From positions 1-43,455 of the forward strand of contig SVBO01000006.1 in NCBI GenBank assembly GCA_015058845.1: a stretch of DNA of 43,455 nucleotides, written 5' to 3'. Positions within the stretch are counted from its first letter, which is position 1, and every line of letters starts with the position of its first letter. Shown piece by piece: positions 30,546 to 30,768 of the stretch. The notes under the pieces were generated by a model. That model was not told the DNA's origin and made no database searches. It worked only from the letters and a program-made list of their open reading frames with translations. The DNA comes from Erysipelotrichaceae bacterium. Its GTDB lineage: Bacteria; Bacillota_I; Bacilli_A; Erysipelotrichales; Erysipelotrichaceae. Both the position numbers and the translations under genes were made by a program.

Positions 30546-30587
30546 TTATATGTAAGTATATGTTCTGTATATAAGGGGTTGAATTAT

Positions 30588-30650
30588 ATGCTTAATAAGA
30601 CTATCATTAGACAGACAGACAGACAGACAGACAGACAGACAGACAGGTAG
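30588..30650 (+). CDS. Short leader ORF encoding an Arg-Gln-Thr-Asp repeat peptide
   Basis: An AAGGGG sequence (30573-30578) lies nine bases before ATG 30588. Twenty codons read MLNKTII followed by RQTD repeats, because the tetranucleotide repeat is read in all three phases every 12 bases. The frame ends at TAG TAG (30648-30653) immediately after the repeat. With one more AGAC unit the frame would continue to TAA 30704-30706; with one less it would stop at TAG 30694-30696. Both stops lie within the arms of the terminator hairpin at 30684-30715. It is probably a regulatory leader ORF rather than a gene for a functional peptide. Translation is not proven. Confidence 0.5.
   Translation: MLNKTIIRQTDRQTDRQTDR
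30609..30646 (+). repeat. Tetranucleotide repeat (AGAC)9.5
   Basis: Thirty-eight bases of perfect AGAC repeat, 9.5 units. Four-base repeats of this purity are mutable by slipped-strand mispairing and change the frame of any ORF that crosses them, the classic basis of phase variation (AGAC tracts do this in Haemophilus). Here the tract is inside the leader ORF, about 120 bases upstream of a secreted-protein gene. Confidence 0.97.
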
Positions 30651-30683
30651 TAGATTACTATCTAGGTTTTATATGGATAAATG

Positions 30684-30724
30684 GACGTGTTTTTAGTGTG
30701 GACTAAGAATACGTCTTTTATTAT
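30684..30724 (+). terminator. Strong intrinsic terminator/attenuator in the leader
   Basis: A 14-pair stem is formed by 30684-30697 (GACGTGTTTTTAGT) and 30702-30715 (ACTAAGAATACGTC) with loop GTGG and two G.T wobbles, followed by TTTTATTAT. It lies between the repeat ORF and the surface-protein gene. It would end transcripts from the promoter at 30516 unless ribosomes or another factor disturb it. Confidence 0.85.
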
Positions 30725-30729
30725 ATCTC

Positions 30730-30745
30730 AAACATAAGTATGTTT
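30730..30745 (+). repeat. Perfect inverted repeat, operator candidate
   Basis: AAACATA-AG-TATGTTT, seven bases per arm, lies between the terminator and the ribosome site of the surface-protein gene. Only weak -10-like sequences (TATGTT, TACTAT) overlap or follow it, so an independent promoter is uncertain. It may be a protein-binding site or a small RNA hairpin. Confidence 0.5.
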
Positions 30746-30768
30746 ACTATGGTAAAGGAGGGTTGTTT

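Follow-up and report, generated by a model that had tools for sequence, protein, structure and literature searches.

The leader studied here raises the question of whether a translated repeat placed ahead of a transcription terminator could, by changing its number of units, switch the gene that follows. The window, a 43,455-nucleotide stretch of an Erysipelotrichaceae bacterium (assembly GCA_015058845.1, contig SVBO01000006.1), carries a perfect (AGAC)9.5 array that is its highest-scoring tandem repeat (score 76; next 57) and is one of just two AGAC arrays of at least four units in the 1.75-Mb genome. The original prediction placed this array within a leader ORF starting at ATG 30588, and this was confirmed to the base (Table 1). 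At 9.5 units the leader stop lies 4 nt past the array and 32 nt short of the terminator hairpin, where about 30 bases had been predicted, and the ends of the stops calculated for one AGAC unit more (30706) or one unit less (30696) both fall within the hairpin, exactly as claimed. A terminator between leader and gene was also found, with 15 pairs at 30683-30716 in place of the 14 pairs first given at 30684-30715; its hairpin folds with a ΔG of -18.9 kcal/mol (z -6.6), and none of 200 shuffled sequences was equally stable. In an Rfam search of the leader no family passed its threshold, the single hit scoring 20.8 bits (E 0.36) where 105 is the cut-off.

Table 1. Features of the leader and of the gene behind it, in window coordinates
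Feature	Position	Strand	Basis and details
P1, upstream promoter-like site TTGTAT-18-TATAAT	30516..30545	+	read from sequence; expected start near 30552
Shine-Dalgarno-like AAGGGG of leader ORF	30573-30578	+	9 nt 5' of ATG 30588
P2, promoter-like site TTGAAT-17-TATCAT	30579..30607	+	promoter scan; ends 1 nt before repeat
Leader ORF, 20 codons, MLNKTIIRQTDRQTDRQTDR	30588..30650	+	ATG 30588; present stop TAG 30648-30650, second TAG 30651-30653
(AGAC)9.5 array, proposed to be phase-variable	30609-30646	+	tandem-repeat scan of window
Weak stem-loop directly 3' of array	30645..30663	+	fold; same place as the array-made first terminator (AGACAG...CTGTCTTTTT) of relatives
T2, intrinsic terminator	30683..30726	+	15-pair stem 30683-30716, then T-rich tail TTTATTATAT
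Gene for 370-aa secreted protein, proposed controlled gene	30769..31881	+	ATG 30769; own good SD about 30754-30762

The sigma-A promoter predicted ahead of the leader is plausible but not canonical. Its -10 hexamer is a perfect TATAAT, whereas the -35 matches at three of six positions, and because of this weak -35 the site (P1) scored under the cut-off of the promoter scan and is absent from its list. The weak -35 is a point against the attenuator. The scan returned instead a second site, P2, which had been overlooked in the original prediction, and no promoter-like site on the + strand between T2 and the start of the gene. Upstream of the leader lies a pyrimidine-nucleoside phosphorylase gene (29181-30482) with its own terminator-like hairpin (30481-30498).

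The downstream gene had been described as encoding a surface protein, and its predicted product fits this description, as it carries a signal peptide and a C-terminal region that also occurs in large surface-type proteins; the product is thus probably secreted and located at the surface. This region of ~170 aa is found at six further places in the same genome (G000, contigs C41, C6, C10, C15, and C25) and at nine loci in G001, the other genome of the genus that was compared, in both mostly within long secreted proteins, and it is possibly a surface-anchoring module. Neither the 370-aa protein nor its C-terminal region has a Pfam match, and a search of the genome_contigs collection found no related proteins. 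Paralogues within the genus are without the leader, so that the switch does not belong to the protein family as such.

From this arrangement we infer slippage, leader translation, and an effect on expression, linked as follows. RNA polymerase would begin at P1, and ribosomes would translate the short leader ORF running through (AGAC)n. Slipped-strand mispairing would alter n by whole 4-nt units and so shift the reading frame behind the repeat. With n at 9.5, or changed by multiples of three units, the leader would stop at 30650, 32 nt before T2, which would then fold and end most transcription (an off or low state). Gain or loss of one unit would carry translation into T2, and the ribosome would hold the hairpin open, allowing the surface-protein gene to be transcribed (on).

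An experimentally proven system with this design is the pil1 locus of Streptococcus gallolyticus, in which GCAGA repeats lie in a leader ORF whose low-state stop is 39-49 bp before the terminator and in which one repeat more or less brings the stop up to the hairpin or inside it, with higher pilus expression (PMC3894217). The proof came from variants of the repeat, from mutants of the RBS/ATG and of the terminator, which behaved as predicted, and from chloramphenicol; the evidence for pil3 agrees, and only the upstream promoter of pil1 was active (PMC3894217). The off distance of 32 nt in the window agrees with the published figures, which are 39-49 nt for pil1, 33 bp to the downstream terminator of pil3, and at least 28 nt for isolates with a low-type profile (PMC3894217). 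The window and pil1/pil3 have in common a repeat, with a unit that is not a multiple of three, in a small leader ORF with SD and ATG; a stop that in the low state precedes an intrinsic terminator by some 30-50 nt and that one unit more or less moves into or near the hairpin; and a downstream surface gene, consisting of pilus genes at pil1/pil3 and of a predicted surface protein in the window. They differ in the unit, a pentanucleotide in pil1/pil3 and a tetranucleotide in the window, in the host lineage, and in the target gene, and whereas pil1 and pil3 were studied by experiment, the switch in the window is predicted from sequence. In the window a promoter-like element also adjoins the array. 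As read, the window leader has every sequence feature of pil1-type attenuators except a canonical upstream promoter, and we consider it very likely that it is a phase-variable transcription attenuator working in the same way as pil1.

Several other regulatory systems share part of this design. The flagellar switch and cwpV of Clostridioides difficile are phase-variable after initiation, through termination in the leader, but they depend on site-specific DNA inversion and involve no leader-peptide frame, whereas the window would depend on repeat slippage. In trp-type attenuation the position of the ribosome on a leader peptide decides whether the terminator folds; in the window there would be no amino-acid sensing, and the frame would be set by the heritable number of repeats. 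In phase-variable genes with tetranucleotide arrays, such as hsdS and mod, slippage changes the frame and breaks the gene itself, whereas here a leader would be read and the downstream gene stays intact.

The same genome contains a paralogous leader with 19.5 AGAC units (L009, G000:C14:6833; array region 6854-6935), which reads AGGGG-TTGCAATAT-ATG AGT AAT ACG AGT ATC ATT (AGAC)19.5 GTAG and encodes the peptide MSNTSII(RQTD)n. The SD, the ATG, the length before the array, and the TATCATT in front of it are kept between the two leaders, and the other spacer bases have diverged. As contig C14 ends just past this second array, the gene behind it is missing from the assembly. The one other genome of the genus that was compared has no AGAC array.

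We searched for T(AGAC)4.5 in one genome per species and obtained at least 117 stretches, including many from gut and oral Firmicutes; the 114 arrays analyzed come from the matches listed and are a sample. Many lie in coding sequences that, by reading of their translations, belong to the hsdS family (L064, L075, L078, L082, L096, L097, L120, L158, and L164) or encode acyltransferases (L092, L170, and L181). Others are leaders of the window type, often with an upstream promoter, SD, ATG, array, terminator, and gene in this order, and four of them (L080, L090, L098, and L131) have near-perfect P1 sites. Terminators of these relatives were placed by a simple script that also accepted imperfect hairpins. 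We then asked how many terminator-bearing leaders have one frame that stops no more than 10 nt past the array together with another that is open into the terminator, with linker shuffles as the null. This pattern was present in 24 of 27 leaders, against a shuffle mean of 9.2 (sd 2.4) with none of 300 shuffles reaching 24, and in 19 of 22 after removal of close relatives (shuffle mean 7.8, 0/1000); the shuffles and E-values of this study take loci as independent although some share ancestry, and the de-duplicated test covers the leaders alone. The long frame ends in the terminator loop in L046, L161, L163, and L156, and in L066 it runs past the terminator and its end overlaps the gene's start codon. 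Reference genomes with AGAC leaders occur in both states. The frame pattern is that expected if ribosomes reading the leader decide on terminator formation, and the proposal of frame-switched attenuation thus gains support from a recurrent, non-random layout in distant bacteria as well as from the pil1/pil3 precedent.

The genes behind the AGAC leaders often encode signal-peptide, VWA, GLUG, BspA-type LRR, List-Bact-repeat, or type IV pilin-like proteins, and some do not encode surface proteins. About ten leaders have an extra, first terminator ahead of the main one whose 5' arm is provided by the array, and ribosomes on the array should therefore control that hairpin too; such array-made hairpins were seen in L046, L084, L134, L161, L163, L171, L179, and L185. 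An apparent case of repeat variation, L112 with 15.75 and 14.75 units on two arms, was discarded, as its contig is palindromic, at 98.8% identity with 40 gaps, and is likely an assembly artefact.

A second feature of the AGAC loci is a promoter-like sequence directly in front of the array. Although the 114 arrays were collected without regard to this element, an exact TTGACA ends 23-30 nt 5' of the array in 48 of them, where 0.25 would be expected and the maximum in 200 shuffles was 3. The 48 loci, which fall among L071-L187, share the consensus TTGACA-N16-18-NANNNT, which has the form of a sigmaA-type promoter aimed into the repeat, and P2 of the window is a weaker form of it (4/6 and 5/6 matches). 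An A at -11 and a T at -7, the pair of bases recognized by sigma in the open complex, are found at spacer 17 in 37 of the 48 array-associated TTGACA sites but in only 55 of the 485 TTGACA sites that served as controls (Fisher p 3e-22), and at spacers 16-18 in 48/48 against 104/485. With a spacer of 17, 0-5 nt separate the -10 from the array, so that transcription would start within the array. In leaders the element lies between the SD and the ATG, whereas in hsdS it lies inside the coding sequence, in various reading frames; a run of at least five purines stands just 5' of TTGACA at 26 of 38 non-hsdS loci. HsdS homologues that have no array nearly always carry other codons at the TTGACA position, whereas the TTGACA is present in HsdS genes where AGAC or a different short repeat occupies that place, which ties the element to the repeat and not to the gene. 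An exact TTGACA precedes each of the other repeats seen at this place (L199/L208, L194, and L205), which are (AGCA)n, (GCAC)n, and a heptanucleotide of the AACGAAC type.

The association of the element with AGAC arrays is statistically very strong. The element may raise the mutability of the repeat, or it may give rise to an RNA whose 5' end lies in the array. Works cited in PMC7015867 describe transcription into triplet repeats and R-loops as destabilizing such repeats. A tentative extension, which we regard as possible though doubtful, is that Firmicutes AGAC loci carry a dedicated promoter, TTGACA-N17-NANNNT, directed into the repeat, and that its transcription or open complex raises the gain and loss of units, having evolved to preserve the mutability of the switch, both in attenuators and in coding genes.

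This element also provides the first alternative to the attenuator, namely that P2 is the functional promoter, from which RNA starts inside the array without the leader ORF, and that n takes effect through how long the AGAC-rich 5' end is or how it folds, for example by pairing with GUCU of the terminator. With P2 as the main promoter, the transcript would lack the leader ATG and the reading frame would be without effect. The frequency of P2-like sites next to arrays, their conserved -11A and -7T, and the leaders whose array pairs with CTGTCTTTTT to form a first terminator all favor such a role. However, the leader retains its SD and ATG upstream of the P2 start, and the strongly non-random frame pattern behind the array is accounted for by translation but not by the P2 model. 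The element is also present within hsdS coding sequence, where an RNA of this kind would have no start codon, and in the window P2 is weak. We therefore rejected P2 as the true promoter in our main model and judge this alternative improbable. A related candidate, AGAC-GUCU pairing as a pyrG-like antiterminator, was set aside as well, as pairing over 4-6 bp is weak and leaves the frame pattern unexplained.

Slightly less probable still is that the window has an ordinary non-switching leader with a constitutive partial terminator, in which the repeat is incidental. Slippage and switching in the window species are deduced from its sequence, which leaves room for such a leader, but a perfect 38-nt tetranucleotide array is unlikely to be stable, the two paralogous leaders differ in unit number (9.5 and 19.5), and the layout recurs in many lineages. 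Classical coding phase variation, in which one frame would fuse the repeat ORF with the downstream gene, as happens at the AGAC arrays of the hsdS and acyltransferase loci L064, L075, L092, L170, and L181, has next to no chance of applying here, as all three leader frames end (30650, 30696, and 30706) ahead of a gene with its own SD and ATG, and it is refuted at the window locus barring frameshifting or misassembly.

The pil1-type attenuator thus remains our preferred reading of the window leader. Attenuation was originally put forward as an unusual mode for repeat phase variation, and unusual it is, but attenuation switched by leader repeats is not new in principle, the design being already known from pil1/pil3 (PMC3894217). 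What is new is the AGAC version spread over many lineages, the array-made first terminators, and the promoter-like signature before the arrays; among open-licence papers we found no report of AGAC-repeat phase variation in Firmicutes. A design that we found documented in one Streptococcus only seems to be a general one among gut and oral Firmicutes, and if it is, the on and off states of many surface genes could be read from repeat number in genomes and metagenomes. The signature is common to attenuators and hsdS genes, and it opens a possible tuning of repeat mutability through local transcription to direct test.

AGAC arrays were also seen in other settings. At hsdS loci L064, L075, L096, L120, and others, a full-length HsdS ORF of ~400 codons is followed by the array and by ~200 codons resembling a further specificity module, and by reading these loci would be phase-variable. 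Elusimicrobiota-type contigs (L074, L089, L182, L073, and others) contain many AGAC arrays, with several copies per genome, and on the opposite strand (GTCT)n encodes a hydrophobic (LSVC)n, which at some loci lies close to an ORF start. Two IMG/VR contigs carry arrays within genes: in L188, at ~2666-2713, (AGAC)24.5 interrupts what reads as a diversity-generating-retroelement-type reverse transcriptase-like gene, which would be phase-variable through the array, and near the end of L189 an AGAC array with TTGACA-17-CACAAT lies in a phage-contig gene that by eye is PAPS-reductase-like.
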